Source: Jiangella asiatica
GTDB taxonomy: Bacteria > Actinomycetota > Actinomycetes > Jiangellales > Jiangellaceae
Length of the DNA: 64,000 nt
Assembly: GCF_004349065.1 (NCBI RefSeq)
Contig: NZ_SMKZ01000007.1
Coordinates: 62,001 to 126,000, forward strand
Direction of reading: 5' to 3'
Shown: positions 12,070-60,080 of the stretch, one piece after another
Layout of the letters: every line of letters begins with the position of its first letter
Position numbering within the stretch: position 1 is the stretch's first letter
Program-made: the position numbers and the translations under genes
The notes under the pieces: model-generated
The model's database searches: none
What the model saw: the letters and a program-made list of their open reading frames with translations, nothing else
Told to the model about the DNA's origin: nothing

Positions 12070-13632
12070 TCACACCGCCGGGGCGGCGGTTGATCGTGCG
12101 GTTGCCGAAAGATCGGGCGTGGTGGGTCCGGCGCGGGTCTTGGCGGTCTCGTACTGGTTGCGCCAGCGCTGCCGTTGGTTGATGGCGTGGGCGATGAGGC
12201 GGGCGTAGGAGGGTCCGTCGAGGTCGCCGGGGTGGGTGGTGGTCCAGACGAACCGCGGTGTGCCGTCTGGGGTGGTGGTGGTTGCCGAAAGCTCGTCGTG
12301 GTCGTCCATGTCGATTCCGGCTTCGGTGAGGACGGCGCGGATGACGGCGGCGCGGTCGGCGCGGTGTTGGTCGAGGCTCTTGCCGGTCCAGCGCCTGCTG
12401 ACGAGGACGCGGCGGCCGCCGAGGCCGAGGTGGTCGCGGTCGTGGGCCTTGGAGGTGCAGCGGCCGGGTTCGAGGCCGGGGCGGGGGTTCTTGGGTTGGA
12501 TGCCGTGGCGGAGCCAGTTCGCGCAGGTGGGTGAGCAGGGCAGCCACCGGACCTCGTCGGCGAGCCGGTCGATATGCGCCCTGCATGCTGCCGAGATCGG
12601 GGCTTCGCCGTCGTGGTCGTTGTGGAGGGGGTCGGTGATGGACTTCGTGAGGTACTTCGTCAGGTAGCCGATGACCCGGTCCGCCAGCGGCGTGCCGGCG
12701 ATGACGCCCTGAATGTCGACCTGCGACCCGGCCCGGATCACGTGCGCCGGCATCGCGGCCGGGTCGTCGTTGATCTCGTCCAACGCCGCGTCCCAGGACG
12801 GGAGCAGCGCGCCCGTCTGTGGGTCGGCGTATGCGTGCGCCAGCTCGTCCCACACCGGCATGGCGGCGGGGTCGGTGTGGACGGGTTCGTCGAGGTTGGG
12901 CCACCAGACCTGGTGGTAGGTCGCGGCGACCACTTGGCGGATGAGTTTGCGGGGGATGGCTCCGCGGATGGCGGCGTGCAGGTGCGGGGCGAGGCGGCGT
13001 TGGGGTTCGACGGTGGCGAAGTACTGCACGTTGTAGCCGGTGGCGCGGCGGAGGTTCTGCCAGAACCGGTCCACCAGCTTCGGGAAGTGCATCGCATCCA
13101 GCGCGGCGCGGCGGTAGTCGTAGGTGGCCGGGTCGGCCGGGGCACCTTCGCTGGTGACGCGTCCGTAGGAGGGCAGGGTGAGGGTGAGGAACATGGAGGG
13201 CCGGTAGGTCTTGCCGTCCGGGGCCTCGAAGATGCGGCCGGTGGTGCGGTCGGACACCTCCAGCCTCGGGATGTTCGGCGCGTCCTGGCGCCGGCGGGTC
13301 GACCTGACCCGCCGACCCGTGTCCTCGTACTCGTCGGCTTGGCCGTCGTTCTCGGGCTCGTCGTCCTGGTTGTCGGGTTCGGGTCGGGGTGGGTCGTGGT
13401 CGAGGTGCCAGCCTTCGCGGCATTGCTGGATCCGCAGCCGGCGGGCGGTGTCGGCGCAGGAGGGGCAGACCTTGGCGCGGGTGGCCCCGCACGCGATCAC
13501 CACCGTGCGGGTGGTGCCGGTGAGGGTGTCGGTGACGTGTTGCAGGATCGGCCGCACACACACGCCCTGCCGTGCTGCGAGCTCGCGCAGGGTCGCGTCG
13601 TCGGGCAGCCCGGCCGACAACGGGGTGGTCAC
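12070..13632 (-). CDS. rep: replication initiator protein (RepSA-like)
   Basis: This 520-aa protein probably nicks the element's origin for rolling-circle replication of the excised circle. An N-terminal Cys pair (CPSCADTARR) may bind zinc. The HUH-type motifs are present: motif I FLTLTLPSYG near residue 150, motif II PHLHAAIRG near 220, and a tyrosine motif YLTKYLTKS near 330. The size agrees with pSAM2 RepSA-type initiators. The start overlaps the end of the translocase gene by 4 nt. The double-strand origin was not recognised. Confidence 0.85.
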   Translation of the reverse strand: MTTPLSAGLPDDATLRELAARQGVCVRPILQHVTDTLTGTTRTVVIACGATRAKVCPSCADTARRLRIQQCREGWHLDHDPPRPEPDNQDDEPENDGQADEYEDTGRRVRSTRRRQDAPNIPRLEVSDRTTGRIFEAPDGKTYRPSMFLTLTLPSYGRVTSEGAPADPATYDYRRAALDAMHFPKLVDRFWQNLRRATGYNVQYFATVEPQRRLAPHLHAAIRGAIPRKLIRQVVAATYHQVWWPNLDEPVHTDPAAMPVWDELAHAYADPQTGALLPSWDAALDEINDDPAAMPAHVIRAGSQVDIQGVIAGTPLADRVIGYLTKYLTKSITDPLHNDHDGEAPISAACRAHIDRLADEVRWLPCSPTCANWLRHGIQPKNPRPGLEPGRCTSKAHDRDHLGLGGRRVLVSRRWTGKSLDQHRADRAAVIRAVLTEAGIDMDDHDELSATTTTPDGTPRFVWTTTHPGDLDGPSYARLIAHAINQRQRWRNQYETAKTRAGPTTPDLSATARSTAAPAV

Positions 13633-15134
13633 GTGCGCACCCCCGCAGCCTCACCCTCGGTCTCGCCCTGGTCCGCGCCGTCGCCCTGTTCGGAGTCCTC
13701 CGTGTCGGTGTCGGGTGCGGGTGTGCCGAGGTCGGTGAGGTCGCGGCGTAGGGCGGTGGTGCGGGTGGCGATGGCCTGGGCGGTGTGTTCGTCGACGAGG
13801 GGGAAGCGGACCCGTTCGAGCCGGCCAGTGTCGGTGGCGACGACGGCGACGCCGCGGTGGGCTTCGCCGATGTCAACCGGGGACACGTCGGCGTCGTTGA
13901 CGACCGGTCCGAGGATGGCTTCGGCGGATTCGCGGGACATGACCCGCCACGCCGTCCTGACGGAGGCGTTGTCGCGGATGCCGGTGGGGATCGCATCGGC
14001 CGTGGGTTTCTGGGTGAGTAGGCGGGTGATGATGCCGGCGGAGCGGCCCTTCTTCACCAGCGCCGACAACCGAGCGGTGATGCGCTGCGCGGTGGCTTTG
14101 GTGTCGGGGTCCATGCCTTTGGTGTCGGTGAAGGTCTGCACCTCGTCCACGACCAGGAACACCACCGGATGCTGCGCCTCGAGGGGCAGGTTCCAGAAGT
14201 TCGCCTCACCCCGCAGGGTCTTCTGCGTCTTGAGCCGGTGCCGCATCAACCCGTGCACCTGCTCCACCACCTGCAGGACGGTGTCCAGGTGCTCGTCTTC
14301 AGCGGAGTACGCGGCGGCGCGGGGGACGATCCAGGACCAGTCCTCCCCACCCTTCCCATCGATGACGACGTATTGGACGGCGGGGTTCTGGATCAGCCCA
14401 CACGCCAGCGACGTTTCACCGGCGGTCTTCCCCGACCCGGGGACGCCACCGCCGACCTCAGCGGACACGTTCGCGTAGTTCCGGGTCCGCCATTCCCCGT
14501 CTTCCCCGATGGCGAACCGCACCACGCGCAGGTCCGTCACGGCGGGGACGTCGTCAAGGACGACCGGTTCGGCCAGCACGTTTCGCTCGACCAGGGTCAG
14601 CTCCACTCGCCCGGGCGCGGAGGACGCGACGCGGACTTCCGGGACGCCGAGCGCGTGGGCCAGGTCGTCGGCCTGCCGGGCGTAGTCCGCCGGCGCCTGA
14701 CCGGGCAGGAGGCGCACGTGCAGCATGTCACCGACCGGGGCCAGGCTCACCTTGTCGAGCGAGGGGGTGAGGGTGTCGCCGGTGGGGGTGGTCTTGTGCA
14801 GCTCGCACGCCCGGATCACTGCCGCCCACCGGGGCCGGTGCACATGCCGGAGCCGATGCCGGGCCACCATCCGGCCCACGAACCATCCGTGCGACCGGGG
14901 GTGCACGGCCCGCCAGGTCAGCGACAACAGCGGCAGCGCCACCACGAGCATCACGACGCCGAGCCAACCGAACGCCGAGTAGGCATACAGGCCGGCGCAG
15001 ACGACGGCGACGGGTGCCTTGAACCGCCACAGCAGCCGGATCAGCCACCACCCGGTCAGCACCGACACCGCGCCGCCTACGACCGGGCGGGGCAGCACCA
15101 GCACGGCTCGTAGGAACCGCAACGCGTTCACCAT
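13629..15134 (-). CDS. FtsK/SpoIIIE-type DNA translocase (AICE transfer protein, TraSA/TraB-like)
   Basis: This 501-aa motor moves double-stranded element DNA between mycelial cells. Two N-terminal membrane helices (about 17-35 and 40-72) precede a basic linker. The ATPase has Walker A GGVPGSGKTAG near residue 233, Walker B VVFLVVDEVQTF near 325, and the FtsK-like block IRDNASVRTAWRVMSRESAEAILG near 392. The tail after residue 465 is acidic (DTDTEDSEQGDG). AICEs need only this protein for transfer, not a type IV system. A homologous scrap lies beyond the right attachment site at 26926-27050. Confidence 0.9.
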   Translation of the reverse strand: MVNALRFLRAVLVLPRPVVGGAVSVLTGWWLIRLLWRFKAPVAVVCAGLYAYSAFGWLGVVMLVVALPLLSLTWRAVHPRSHGWFVGRMVARHRLRHVHRPRWAAVIRACELHKTTPTGDTLTPSLDKVSLAPVGDMLHVRLLPGQAPADYARQADDLAHALGVPEVRVASSAPGRVELTLVERNVLAEPVVLDDVPAVTDLRVVRFAIGEDGEWRTRNYANVSAEVGGGVPGSGKTAGETSLACGLIQNPAVQYVVIDGKGGEDWSWIVPRAAAYSAEDEHLDTVLQVVEQVHGLMRHRLKTQKTLRGEANFWNLPLEAQHPVVFLVVDEVQTFTDTKGMDPDTKATAQRITARLSALVKKGRSAGIITRLLTQKPTADAIPTGIRDNASVRTAWRVMSRESAEAILGPVVNDADVSPVDIGEAHRGVAVVATDTGRLERVRFPLVDEHTAQAIATRTTALRRDLTDLGTPAPDTDTEDSEQGDGADQGETEGEAAGVRT

Positions 15135-17238: not shown

Positions 17239-18081
17239 GTGACTGACCAGGTAGAGCGCATCGCAGCCATCGACGACCGATTCGAGCTGCTGCGCGAGGC
17301 AAGCGAGCGCATCAATGTCGCCCAACGCGAAGTCACCGAGCTCGCCCGACTGCGACGCCGAGTGATCCAAGAGCTACGAGACCAAGGCCTGTCCTACGCC
17401 GATATCGCTGCCGCCGCCGGCGTCACTCGTGGCCGGATCTTTCAGCTTCGTCAGGTTGGACCGGCTCCAGAGGCCGCACTGCTCGGAAGCGGACAGGTCG
17501 AGGTCCTGACTCCACTCAAGCGCGAGGCTGGCAACGCGCGGCCCGTTGTGGCTGCCGAAGACTTCACCGCTGCTCAGCGCCTGGGCGAACTGGCCCGATC
17601 CCTGCGCTTGGACGTGGAGTACGAGCAGATCCCCACCACCGGCAAGGTCAACCTGAATCGGGACAACCTCATCGTCATCTGCGGACCAAGGCTCTCCGAG
17701 CCGGTAGCGAACGTGCTCAGCCGCGACCCGGTCATCCAGTTCGAACGAGCACCCGACGGACCTTGGACCCTGCACGACACCCGGACCAGCGCGACCTACC
17801 GGTCAGGACCGGACAGCACGCCAGAAGTAGCATTCGACGTCGCCTACCTCGGCCGGCTCCCACGACCGGACCGTGAGGGCACCATTCTCGTGCTCACGGG
17901 CATCCATCCGCCCGGATCACTAGGTGTCGTACACCTGCTCACCAGCGACTTGGCCGCGCTCTACGAGCAAGCCGGCACCGAGCCGTTCTCCACAGTCGTC
18001 GGCGTCGACTACGACTCTGATACGCACGAGCCCGTGGCCGTTCGCCTGCTCACGCCGATCTACCGCCACGAGGACCACTGA
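17239..18081 (+). CDS. HTH regulator with C-terminal putative ligand-binding domain, AICE control protein
   Basis: This is a 280-aa protein starting at GTG 17239 with GGGGAG about 5 nt upstream; in-frame codons before it run through the operator region. Residues about 40-68 form a sigma-70 region 4-like HTH (RRRVIQELRDQGLSYADIAAAAGVTRGRIFQLRQ). The C-terminal half, from DNLIVICGPRLSEPVANVLS to GILVLTGIHP-like GTILVLTGIHPPGSLGVVHL, is an alpha/beta domain with Rossmann-like strands. I cannot assign it to a named family with certainty. The gene overlaps a PP2C gene (TGATG) and faces the transfer operon, so it probably controls it. Confidence 0.7.
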   Translation: MTDQVERIAAIDDRFELLREASERINVAQREVTELARLRRRVIQELRDQGLSYADIAAAAGVTRGRIFQLRQVGPAPEAALLGSGQVEVLTPLKREAGNARPVVAAEDFTAAQRLGELARSLRLDVEYEQIPTTGKVNLNRDNLIVICGPRLSEPVANVLSRDPVIQFERAPDGPWTLHDTRTSATYRSGPDSTPEVAFDVAYLGRLPRPDREGTILVLTGIHPPGSLGVVHLLTSDLAALYEQAGTEPFSTVVGVDYDSDTHEPVAVRLLTPIYRHEDH

Positions 18082-49680: not shown

Positions 49681-50598
49681 ATGACCGGATCCGCCGACAG
49701 CACCGGCGGGCCGCCACCCGGCGGCTCCGCCGTGCCGACCTGTTATCGGCACCCCGACCGCGAGACCTACATCCGCTGCTCGCGGTGTGAGCGGCCCATC
49801 TGCCCTGACTGCATGACAGCCGCCCCGGTGGGGTTCCAGTGCCCGCAGTGCGTGGCCGAGGGCAACAAGGGCGTCCGGCAGGCGCGAACCGTGCTGGGCG
49901 GCACGATTCGAGAGACCAACGCCAACACCATCACGCTGTCGCTCCTCGTCATCAACGTGGGCGTGTGGCTGCTGGGCATGGTCATGGGCACTTCCGGCAC
50001 CCTGTACGGCATGTTCGCCCGGGAGTGGAACACCAACGAGCTCGGTGTCCAGCTCGGGCTGGTGCTCGGCAACCCCGACGACGGCTTCGACCTCGGCGTG
50101 GTCGACGGCCAGTGGTACCGCCTGATCACCGCGGCGTTCATGCACGAGAACGCCCTGCACATCGGCATGAACATGCTCGCGCTCTGGGTGCTGGGCAGCT
50201 CGCTGGAGCCGGTGCTGGGACGCTGGCGGTTCATCACGCTGTACCTGCTGTCCGCCCTGGGCGGCACCGCGGCGTCGCTGCTGGCCACGTCGGAGTACAC
50301 GCTGTCCTACGGTGCCTCAGGCGCCGTGTTCGGTCTCATGGGCGCACTGTTCGTGATCATGCGCCGGCTGGGCCGTGAGACGGGGGCCGTCGTCGGCATC
50401 CTCGCCTTCAACCTCGTGCTCGGCTTCACGATCCAGGGCATCGACTGGCGCGCCCACCTGGGCGGCCTCGTCATCGGCACCGGCCTGGCGGCCGTGTTCG
50501 CCTACGCACCGCGGCAGCAACGCCTCGCGTGGTCCATCACCGGGTGTGCTCTCGCGGTGATGATCATCGCGACCGTCATCCTGGTCCGCGTGGGCTGA
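49681..50598 (+). CDS. rhomboid-family intramembrane serine protease with N-terminal zinc finger
   Basis: This is a 305-aa membrane protease. An N-terminal B-box-like zinc finger has four Cys pairs (CYRHPDRETYIRCSRCERPI, CPDCMTAAPVGFQCPQC). Six membrane helices follow. WYRLITAAFMHENALHIGMN carries conserved His, GASGAVFGLMGALFVIM the catalytic Ser, and WRAHLGGLVIGTGLAA the His partner. Members of this family with the zinc finger lie in this position in actinobacteria. Substrates are unknown. Confidence 0.94.
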   Translation: MTGSADSTGGPPPGGSAVPTCYRHPDRETYIRCSRCERPICPDCMTAAPVGFQCPQCVAEGNKGVRQARTVLGGTIRETNANTITLSLLVINVGVWLLGMVMGTSGTLYGMFAREWNTNELGVQLGLVLGNPDDGFDLGVVDGQWYRLITAAFMHENALHIGMNMLALWVLGSSLEPVLGRWRFITLYLLSALGGTAASLLATSEYTLSYGASGAVFGLMGALFVIMRRLGRETGAVVGILAFNLVLGFTIQGIDWRAHLGGLVIGTGLAAVFAYAPRQQRLAWSITGCALAVMIIATVILVRVG

Positions 50599-50619
50599 GC
50601 CGACGCCGTCGGTCATTCG

Positions 50620-50691
50620 GGCCCATCACCGCGGGTGTGCTTCACCAGGCGTGCATCCACGGTGAAGCACGGGAACCCCCGGTGATGGGCC
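50620..50691. repeat. 72-nt imperfect palindrome after the rhomboid gene
   Basis: GGCCCATCACC at 50620-50630 and GGTGATGGGCC at 50681-50691 are perfect outer arms. Inside, GTGCTTCACC and GGTGAAGCAC pair, with a short bulge between. It can end the ppiA-rhomboid transcript; no T-run follows. Confidence 0.7.
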
Positions 50692-50699
50692 TGGCCACT

Positions 50700-50773
50700 T
50701 TATCCACAGGGGTTATCCCCACTGTTGAAAATTACACGCGTGTAATCACAGGTGTGCAATAAGCTGTGGACAA
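50700..50773. promoter_or_regulatory. DnaA-box cluster with a 16-bp perfect palindrome
   Basis: TTATCCACA (50700-50708) and, on the minus strand, TTGTCCACA (50773-50765) are consensus DnaA boxes. TTATCCCCA (50713-50721) differs at one base. Between them ATTACACGCGTGTAAT (50731-50746) is a perfect palindrome. The locus lies 24 bp beyond the stop of crgA, between convergent rhomboid and crgA genes, and is AT-rich for this genome. Confidence 0.65.
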
Positions 50774-50796
50774 CGGTGTTTCTGCAGGTCAGTTGG

Positions 50797-51054
50797 CTAC
50801 TTCCACCGAGTGGCGGTCATGAAGCCACCGGTGATCAAGCCCATGCCGATCAACAGGTTCCATCCACCGAGGTCCTGGATCACCGGGATCTCGTCACCTA
50901 CGAGGTAGTAGACGACGATCCACACGAGCCCGACAACGAGCAGGGTGACCATGGTGGGGACGACCCACGGACCGGAGACTGTCGGGTCCTTGACCTCGCG
51001 CCGCTCCGGCGGGGTGTAGTCGTCGTCCTTGCGACGGCGGCGAGATATGGGCAC
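50797..51054 (-). CDS. crgA: cell division protein CrgA
   Basis: This is an 85-aa membrane protein starting at GTG 51054 with GAGAGGA upstream. A basic N-terminal tail (PISRRRRKDDDYTPPERRE) precedes two membrane helices (WVVPTMVTLLVVGLVWIVVY and NLLIGMGLITGGFMTATRW). CrgA couples division septum proteins with the cell-wall machinery (FtsI, FtsZ, Wag31) in actinobacteria. It is divergent from the DUF881 gene. Confidence 0.95.
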   Translation of the reverse strand: MPISRRRRKDDDYTPPERREVKDPTVSGPWVVPTMVTLLVVGLVWIVVYYLVGDEIPVIQDLGGWNLLIGMGLITGGFMTATRWK

Positions 51055-58879: not shown

Positions 58880-59356
58880 CTACTTCCGCAGCTCGACAAC
58901 GGTCTTGCCGAGCCGGAACCTGCTCCTGGCCGTGACCGGTGTACTGCGGGTGAGCCGCTGGTTGCCGACATAGGTGCCGTTGGTCGAGCCGAGGTCCTCG
59001 ACGTACCACTGGTTGTCGTGGAACCGGAGTCGCGCGTGCTGGGTGGACACGTACTCGTCCGCGAGCGGCACGGTGCAGTCGCCGCCGCGCCCGAACGTGA
59101 CCGGGCGGCCGTCGAGCGCGGCGCTGCGTCCGGTGTCGGGGCCTTCGACGATGACCGCCTTGGTGGGTGTGCCCTTGCCGGCCCGCGGCTGGCGGGTCTG
59201 CCGGGCGGCCTCACGCGCCTCCCGGCCCGGCTTGGGCTGCTTCGGTGGGCGCACGCCGAACAGGTCGGCCCGCATGGCCGACGTGACGGAGAGGATGAGT
59301 AGCCACAGAACGGCGAGGAAGCCGAGCTTGATGACCGTGAGCGTCAGCTCCGACAC
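58880..59356 (-). CDS. fhaB: FHA-domain protein FhaB (FipA)
   Basis: This is a 158-aa protein from GTG 59356. An N-terminal membrane helix (LTLTVIKLGFLAVLWLLILS) anchors it. The C-terminal FHA domain (70-158) has FGRGGDCTVPL, STQHARLRF and VEDLGSTNGTYVGNQRL, which bind phosphothreonine. It ends 6 nt before the pstP start. In mycobacteria it connects PknA/B signals to division (FtsZ-FtsQ). Confidence 0.93.
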   Translation of the reverse strand: MSELTLTVIKLGFLAVLWLLILSVTSAMRADLFGVRPPKQPKPGREAREAARQTRQPRAGKGTPTKAVIVEGPDTGRSAALDGRPVTFGRGGDCTVPLADEYVSTQHARLRFHDNQWYVEDLGSTNGTYVGNQRLTRSTPVTARSRFRLGKTVVELRK

Positions 59357-59360
59357 CCGC

Positions 59361-60080
59361 TCACCTCCCGGGGACGCGCCGACTGACGTCGGCGACGGTG
59401 GAGCCGAGAACGATGCGCGAGCCGTCGCTGAGCGGCGCCTGCCCGATGCGGGCACCGTCGACCACGGTGCCGTTGGTGGAGCCGAGGTCGACTGCCACGA
59501 GCTGAGTCTGCGTGCCCTGCTGGTACACCCTGATCTCCAGGTGCCGTCGGGAGACGCCGGGATCGTCGATCCGGAGGTCGCATTCGCTGCCCCGGCCGAG
59601 CACGATACCCGGTGCGATGACGGGGTGCTGCGTGCCGTTGATGATCAAGAACGCGGCTGCCTGCCGCTCCGTCGTCGAGCTCGGCGTGAACGACGAGCCG
59701 CGGTCGACACCCGCGCGGACCGCGCTGCGGATGCGGAAGTCGCCGACGATGAGGTCCTCGTGCCGCTCGAACCCGACGCCGACGGGGCCGGTGAACGCGT
59801 AGTGCTGCAGCTCGGCGTGCTCGCGCGCGAGCTCGACCAGCTCGGTCGCGAGGGTCCCGAGGTAGGCGGAGAGCCGCTCGTGGTCGCCCGGTCCGAGCTC
59901 GACCACGAAGTCGTTGGGGACGAGAGAGCGGTCACGGCTGACGATCTGGGCGTTGTTGTCCAGCTCACGCTGGATGGCAGCCGCGATCTCGACCGGCTGG
60001 ACCTCGGAGCGGAACGCCCGCGTGAACGCGCCCTGAACGAGGTTCTCGAGCCGGCGCTCGAAGCGTTGCAGAACCCCCAC
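59361..60080 (-). CDS. fhaA: DUF3662 and FHA domain-containing protein FhaA
   Basis: This is a 239-aa protein from GTG 60080, with GGAGG just upstream. DUF3662 (1-125) starts GVLQRFERRLENLVQGAFTR and AIQRELDNNAQIVSRDRSLV. A short linker leads to the FHA domain (VLGRGSECDLRID, GVSRRHLEIRV, DLGSTNGTVVDGARI). FhaA binds phosphorylated MviN/CwlM-type partners to control peptidoglycan synthesis. First gene of the fhaA-pknB operon. A much longer frame upstream is not family-like. Confidence 0.95.
   Translation of the reverse strand: MGVLQRFERRLENLVQGAFTRAFRSEVQPVEIAAAIQRELDNNAQIVSRDRSLVPNDFVVELGPGDHERLSAYLGTLATELVELAREHAELQHYAFTGPVGVGFERHEDLIVGDFRIRSAVRAGVDRGSSFTPSSTTERQAAAFLIINGTQHPVIAPGIVLGRGSECDLRIDDPGVSRRHLEIRVYQQGTQTQLVAVDLGSTNGTVVDGARIGQAPLSDGSRIVLGSTVADVSRRVPGR

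Follow-up and report, generated by a model that had tools for sequence, protein, structure and literature searches.

To our knowledge, little is understood about how actinobacteria recycle or restrain DnaA. In Escherichia coli, datA is a non-coding cluster of DnaA boxes outside oriC at which DnaA-ATP is hydrolysed in an IHF-dependent manner, and DARS2 is gated by IHF and Fis. At the facing boxes I and II of DARS, ADP-DnaA dimerises head to head and loses its ADP, according to the available part of the source (PMC8682772). We have read the DARS1 and DARS2 cores of E. coli K-12, and in both of them one box faces two tandem boxes, with gaps of 5 and 3. In Streptomyces coelicolor, the clusters H69, H24 and D78 are groups of DnaA boxes around oriC. 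H69 is named after a cosmid that carries crgA, and it may be the crgA-linked site discussed below.

The closest counterpart of the present locus has been described in mycobacteria. In the available part of that study, DnaA of Mycobacterium tuberculosis binds five regions most strongly, including oriC and the Rv0010c-Rv0011c region, binding at the latter being demonstrated by IDAP-seq and EMSA, and ChIP-seq in M. smegmatis found the homologues of the same five regions bound (PMC7738170). Mutants of the Rv0010c-Rv0011c site have longer cells, as do dnaA mutants, whose cell length the authors liken to that of reduced-function dnaA alleles. In the dnaA mutants the expression of Rv0010c and Rv0011c was unaltered, and so was the initiation rate, which the discussion of that paper gives as unchanged for the pathway. 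DnaA binding at the site is already known for mycobacteria, and the difference from the present work is that the paper never uses the name crgA and, in its available part, does not describe conservation outside mycobacteria. In the open-licence literature we found no report that connects crgA with DnaA boxes, and no description of conservation beyond mycobacteria, of a three-box rule, of a DARS-like order or of relocation.

Results and Discussion

The element in Jiangella asiatica

The whole stretch of DNA that was analysed, called the window, comprises 64 kb of Jiangella asiatica (contig C112:62001-126000), and the element lies at contig 112699-112773. The features are, in window coordinates:

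49681-50598, + strand: rhomboid protease gene (PF01694, E 4.2e-34), convergent with crgA
50699..50773, + strand: complete conserved element in its genus-wide form, 75 columns
50700-50708, + strand: DnaA box 1, TTATCCACA, perfect, invariant in 20 aligned family sequences
50713-50721, + strand: DnaA box 2, TTATCCCCA, in tandem with box 1, gap 4 bp
50723-50731, − strand: DnaA box 3, TTTTCAACA, facing box 2, gap 1 bp
50731-50746, no strand: perfect 16-bp palindrome ATTACACGCGTGTAAT, wider core ACA-N4-TGT
50753..50761, − strand: weak DnaA-like box TATTGCACA, kept across the genus
50765-50773, − strand: distal DnaA box TTGTCCACA, its TGTGGA part invariant in 20 family sequences
50797-51054, − strand: crgA (PF06781, E 1.2e-27), its 3′ end facing the element

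The boxes and the palindrome named in the original prediction are exactly where it had placed them, and the box at 50723-50731 on the minus strand had escaped it. This third box is TTTTCCCCA in the remaining 11 genomes of the genus, the J. asiatica version being degraded, and it completes the only three-box array of the window. The AT-rich island that had been described between convergent rhomboid and crgA genes is also borne out: the GC content is 47% at 50700-50799, compared to 66–75% in windows towards the rhomboid gene and 56–74% in those towards crgA, and Pfam confirms both genes.

In our reading of the open reading frames, the end of dnaA is at contig position 59244 and the start of dnaN at 59648, which places the element ca 53 kb from the dnaA-dnaN gap, close to the predicted distance of about 50 kb from oriC. 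The element thus does not lie at dnaA-dnaN, the place of oriC. The gap (L133, C112:59245-59647) has few recognisable boxes, at 59282 (−), 59347 (−) and 59439 (+), and no three-box array was found in it.

The sequence TTNTCCACA occurs three times in the window, once at 17986, compared to 0.43 expected, and none of 100 shuffles reaches three. The 7.03-Mb genome has a single copy of the 16-bp palindrome, TTACAYNNGTGTAA has just two further places in the genome at one mismatch, and no second copy of the array pattern with gaps of 4 and 1 turns up there even when three mismatches are allowed.

A few other sites in the same genome can be recorded here. Three pairs of TTRTCCACA have a start-to-start spacing of 29 bp in all cases (G000:C35:124105/124134, C36:39768/39797 and C79:177835/177864). 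A weaker three-box array with gaps of 3 and 3 is found at L032, offset 1488 (near G000:C41:99254), and the string TGTGTAGTAG beside it is also present in the element of L057. Another weak three-box array, at L018, makes a second such locus besides L032/L033; both arrays differ from that of the element in their gaps and lie by other boxes of the genome.

Conservation in the genus, the family and the class

The element was found 3′ of crgA in all 12 genus genomes searched, that is, J. asiatica and 11 others. Across these genomes 65 of its 75 columns are invariant and the mean pairwise identity is 96% (ungapped), while 20-base windows outside it have ungapped identities of 32–46% on the rhomboid side and 46–63% on the crgA side. 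An 86-position sequence-only model matches 21 of the 22 genomes of the family, which are the whole order in the collection used. The sole miss is G015, a genome that is 81% complete, where a second model gives a weak match (E 0.001).

For the class, we used a sequence-only model of the element alone, built from 20 family sequences, with a cut-off of E 0.01. It matches 156 of 296 genomes and 60 of 114 genera, 22 of the 156 being from the own family; CrgA (PF06781) is present in 289 of the 296. The distance to crgA was taken from 99 of the listed match places, and for 53 genomes outside the family the match and crgA are both among the places listed. In 49 of these the element is at most 254 bp from crgA, with a median of 75 bp, and in the other four (G045, G080, G156 and G191, which share one genus label) it is found 9.3–10.4 kb away, with no boxes in the 160 bases 3′ of crgA. 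These four genomes are small, and their loci are L154-L157.

The tie to crgA can also be seen with tblastn, which places crgA beside the model match in 48 of 50 loci (10 from the class-model search and 40 picked for family spread among the model matches), the exceptions being L086 and L113. At L113 (G262), there is a model match and a three-box array with gaps of 3 and 3, and all six of the genes that usually neighbour the element are missing around it. In a phylum-wide sample of 246 genomes, which includes the own class, eight match at E 0.0001, and G384 is the only one of these outside the class; tblastn found no crgA within 1.5 kb on either side of its match. The DnaA-like boxes that match the class model in this genome of another class are at L288:1440-1640, and tblastn found neither crgA nor another neighbour gene there.

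The crgA-linked site of the mycobacterial type is a cluster of DnaA boxes directly 3′ of crgA, and the J. asiatica element is such a cluster. Comparison with relatives, which the original prediction had proposed as a check, thus found the element conserved in genus, family, class and mycobacteria. The closeness to division genes that it had emphasised holds as a matter of position, the four genomes with a distant element being at odds with a stricter tie.

The mycobacterial counterpart

We now turn our attention to the mycobacteria, for which the best 80 of 439 relatives were scanned (74 Mycobacterium/Mycolicibacterium, 3 Mycobacteriaceae and 3 other actinobacteria). A pattern allowing seven substitutions found the element in 78 of the 80 records. 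In L192 the element is cut by the contig end and the remaining part is visible by eye, and the copy in L245 (M. leprae), too diverged for the pattern, can likewise be made out by eye. M. leprae has a genome known for gene decay. The first box is perfect in nearly all of the mycobacterial copies.

The last base of the GAAT lies 89 bp away from the end of the crgA stop codon in 52 of the 78 records, which is the commonest spacing. Rv0011c is crgA, and its end in M. tuberculosis is at 13714. The available part of the published work gives a GAATC at 13624-13628 in the Rv0010c-Rv0011c site (PMC7738170). With crgA ending at 13714, this position equals the commonest spacing. The Rv0010c-Rv0011c site is thus like the J. 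asiatica element, being the same element at the same place 3′ of crgA. The next gene is different: in mycobacteria it is Rv0010c, which is not convergent, whereas J. asiatica has the convergent rhomboid gene.

The binding in vivo by which the original prediction could be judged is accordingly present for the mycobacterial counterpart, in the ChIP-seq experiment on M. smegmatis as given in the available part of PMC7738170. By analogy, we infer that DnaA of J. asiatica would bind the element.

The three-box array

The boxes were described by the pattern [TC]T[AGT]TCC[AC]CA with up to one mismatch, a definition that was picked once the sequences had been viewed. An array consists of two tandem boxes and one facing box, with gaps of 2–5 and 0–5, respectively, within the crgA 3′ region, taken as at most 400 bases long, or some 450 for set B. 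With this definition, the array is found in 79 of 111 crgA 3′ regions, and in 31 of 41 family labels. The own family is scored as having none among these labels, since its single member there is G015, which is without the array.

It is important to point out how the regions were chosen. The 41 of 48 in set A is biased, because these loci were picked for family spread among the model matches. In set B the array is found in 19 of 33 regions and in set C in 19 of 30, and here 30 of the 33 and 22 of the 30 regions, respectively, come from genomes without a listed model match. The 111 regions represent 109 genomes, as G111 and G224, neither of which has an array, are counted in B and again in C.

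The 32 regions without the array include four of the seven from f19 and four of the ten from f17, and it was absent from every region tried of f3, f8, f27, f32, f37, f42, f43, f44 and f45; some of these array-less regions still show one or two boxes. In the f19 regions there are boxes 3′ of crgA and no palindrome, and three of the seven have the array.

In 400-base control windows from the same loci the array was found in 2 of 619, both overlapping the L113 model match, and in single-base shuffles in 0 of 2220. In 34 of 39 five-kilobase crgA loci it is at most 350 bp from the crgA end, with none elsewhere in 191 kb. When all box orders were counted in the 111 regions with gaps of 0–6, 80 had the tandem-plus-facing order, 4 had three boxes in tandem and 2 were alternating, and a divergent pair beside a third box was found in none. 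In the class, the gap of the facing pair is mostly 1–3 bp and that of the tandem pair 3–4 bp. The most widely shared part of the element is the three DnaA boxes and not the palindrome.

One explanation to be considered for these boxes is that common 9-mers have clustered by chance. Single boxes are indeed not rare, as TTRTCCACA occurs 47 times in the J. asiatica genome (21 for the reversed control). This explanation is refuted by the conservation in the genus, the class and the mycobacteria, together with an array in 79 of 111 regions against 0 of 2220 shuffles, and its probability is negligible.

The palindrome and a possible partner

An ATTACA-N4-TGTAAT-like sequence with the core ACA-N4-TGT is present in 64 of the 111 crgA 3′ regions and 25 family labels, and is absent from the f17, f18 and f19 regions that keep the boxes. 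The first flanking pair of the arms is symmetric in 27 of the 64 compared to 26.3 in shuffles, and the second in 44 of 64 compared to 42.0. One inner pair leans towards symmetry (32 of 64 compared to 25.6, P 0.05), and the remaining pairs do not. Since the arms do not covary in these 64 regions, perfect symmetry is not a general constraint, and a perfect dyad as the core of the element was rejected. The original prediction had a second regulator on the palindrome, and in that form the suggestion is not supported, given the absence in f17–f19 and the symmetry of the arms at shuffle level.

As for proteins that bind sequences of this kind, the available part of PMC11205783 reports that HigA2 of M. 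tuberculosis binds ATCAC-N(4-7)-GTGAT sites in vitro at micromolar protein, and that the authors place one of them at the DnaA site upstream of Rv0010c. MtrA was also considered and set aside, the published MtrA motif being a direct repeat in the available part of its source (PMC6265350).

Neighbouring genes, folding and termination

Another option is that DnaA controls the transcription of crgA, the rhomboid gene or another neighbour through the element. The element is near a division gene in 49 of the 53 genomes among the matches listed, and the mycobacterial site is upstream of Rv0010c, whose expression is raised by HigA2 loss according to the available part of PMC11205783. However, the genes on either side of the element converge in 57 of 68 loci (20 from the own family and 48 others); of the remaining 11, 10 are without a rhomboid match and L101 is arranged differently. 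At L084 and L089, only 48 bp separate the two stop codons and the element fills them wholly, which means that there is no promoter of either neighbour at these loci. A promoter site was accordingly rejected for most loci. Considering also the four genomes in which the element is relocated and the expression of Rv0010c and Rv0011c, unaltered in dnaA mutants in the available part of PMC7738170, control of a neighbour is improbable.

The place between convergent genes, and the inverted repeats in the element, could also suggest a bidirectional transcription terminator. Five of six element strands fold better than shuffles, with z of −1.9 to −2.8, the sixth having +0.3. This somewhat better folding is what facing boxes would give. 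An intrinsic terminator is a GC-rich hairpin followed by a T run; the element has no T run, its folded strands share no common fold, and it is the box sequences themselves that are conserved. No Rfam match near the thresholds was found at the element, and an RNA element was rejected from this and the lack of a shared fold. A tandem repeat was rejected as well. In addition, a far stronger and separate GC-rich hairpin lies to the left, at 50617-50694 (−54.8 kcal mol−1, z −5.1). We consider termination by the element very improbable. The separate hairpin probably serves as a terminator for the rhomboid gene, and other members of the genus have a different sequence at this position.

Proposed action on the DnaA pool

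The reading that we prefer, and with good confidence, is that the element is a cis-acting control site near oriC, old within the class, which would bind DnaA and affect the DnaA pool rather than the adjoining genes. It is favoured by the conservation, the fixed place and box order, the little promoter space and the move in four genomes, and also by the box order shared with DARS1 and DARS2 and the DnaA binding of the mycobacterial copy. A number of points stand against it: the gap of the facing pair is mostly 1–3 bp compared to 5 in the E. coli DARS cores, 32 of the 111 regions are without the array, box 3 is degraded in J. asiatica, and the definition of the box is post hoc. Also, the initiation rate is unchanged in the mycobacterial dnaA mutants in the available part of PMC7738170. 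The original prediction had offered titration, reactivation or timing. Of this, the DnaA site itself is very probably right, in view of the conservation and the mycobacterial binding, and reactivation and titration are both plausible functions.

The comparison with the E. coli sites has two sides. As in DARS, there are three boxes, I facing II and III in tandem with II, with box 3 degraded in J. asiatica; the gaps are 5 and 3 in the E. coli cores and 1 and 4 in the element. Since the element shares the box order and not the spacing, we describe its layout as DARS-like and stop short of classing it as DARS. By description, datA is also similar, being a non-coding cluster of DnaA boxes outside oriC.

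Within the preferred reading, a possible effect of the element, by analogy with DARS1 and DARS2, is reactivation. DnaA molecules on the facing pair of boxes would touch head to head, this contact would help ADP-DnaA to lose its nucleotide and reload ATP, and this would determine how much active DnaA is available when initiation next takes place.

The element may instead be a titration or inactivation site, a reading to which we give a little less weight. Here, boxes of high affinity that lie close to oriC and are duplicated early after initiation would prevent early re-initiation, either by soaking up DnaA or by promoting ATP hydrolysis as datA does in E. coli. Deletion of the S. coelicolor cluster D78 is said to have raised initiation, which counts for this reading. 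So do the first box, perfect in 20 of 20 aligned family sequences and in nearly all mycobacterial copies, and the closeness to oriC (ca 53 kb in J. asiatica; ca 9 kb from dnaA in G245). The mycobacterial site is also one of the five regions with the strongest DnaA enrichment in the available part of PMC7738170. On the other hand, three to five boxes have little capacity, and a sink needs no fixed topology. Furthermore, the site mutants resemble dnaA mutants that were likened to reduced-function alleles, which is the opposite of what loss of a sink would give (PMC7738170, available part).

It is because of this resemblance that we lean to reactivation, a reactivation platform being slightly more likely than a sink, and the argument from the mutants supposes that the mycobacterial site mutations lower DnaA binding.

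A fuller version of the reactivation reading can be put forward, tentatively and with less confidence than either mode by itself. The element could be the ancestral DnaA-reactivating site of the Actinomycetes, analogous to DARS with its facing pair set closer together, and retained beside crgA over much of the class. As part of the same proposal, ACA-N4-TGT would have joined the array in many families, and a partner on it might gate the site in the way that IHF and Fis gate DARS2.

Conclusions

The DnaA-box cluster 3′ of crgA in J. asiatica belongs to a site whose fixed architecture is present in 31 of the 41 family labels sampled across the class. It offers one small target with which reactivation, titration and inactivation could be separated, and this in laboratory species that are harmless. 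The mycobacterial site, which was found through drug-susceptibility genetics and left without a mechanism, can now be seen in this class-wide frame.
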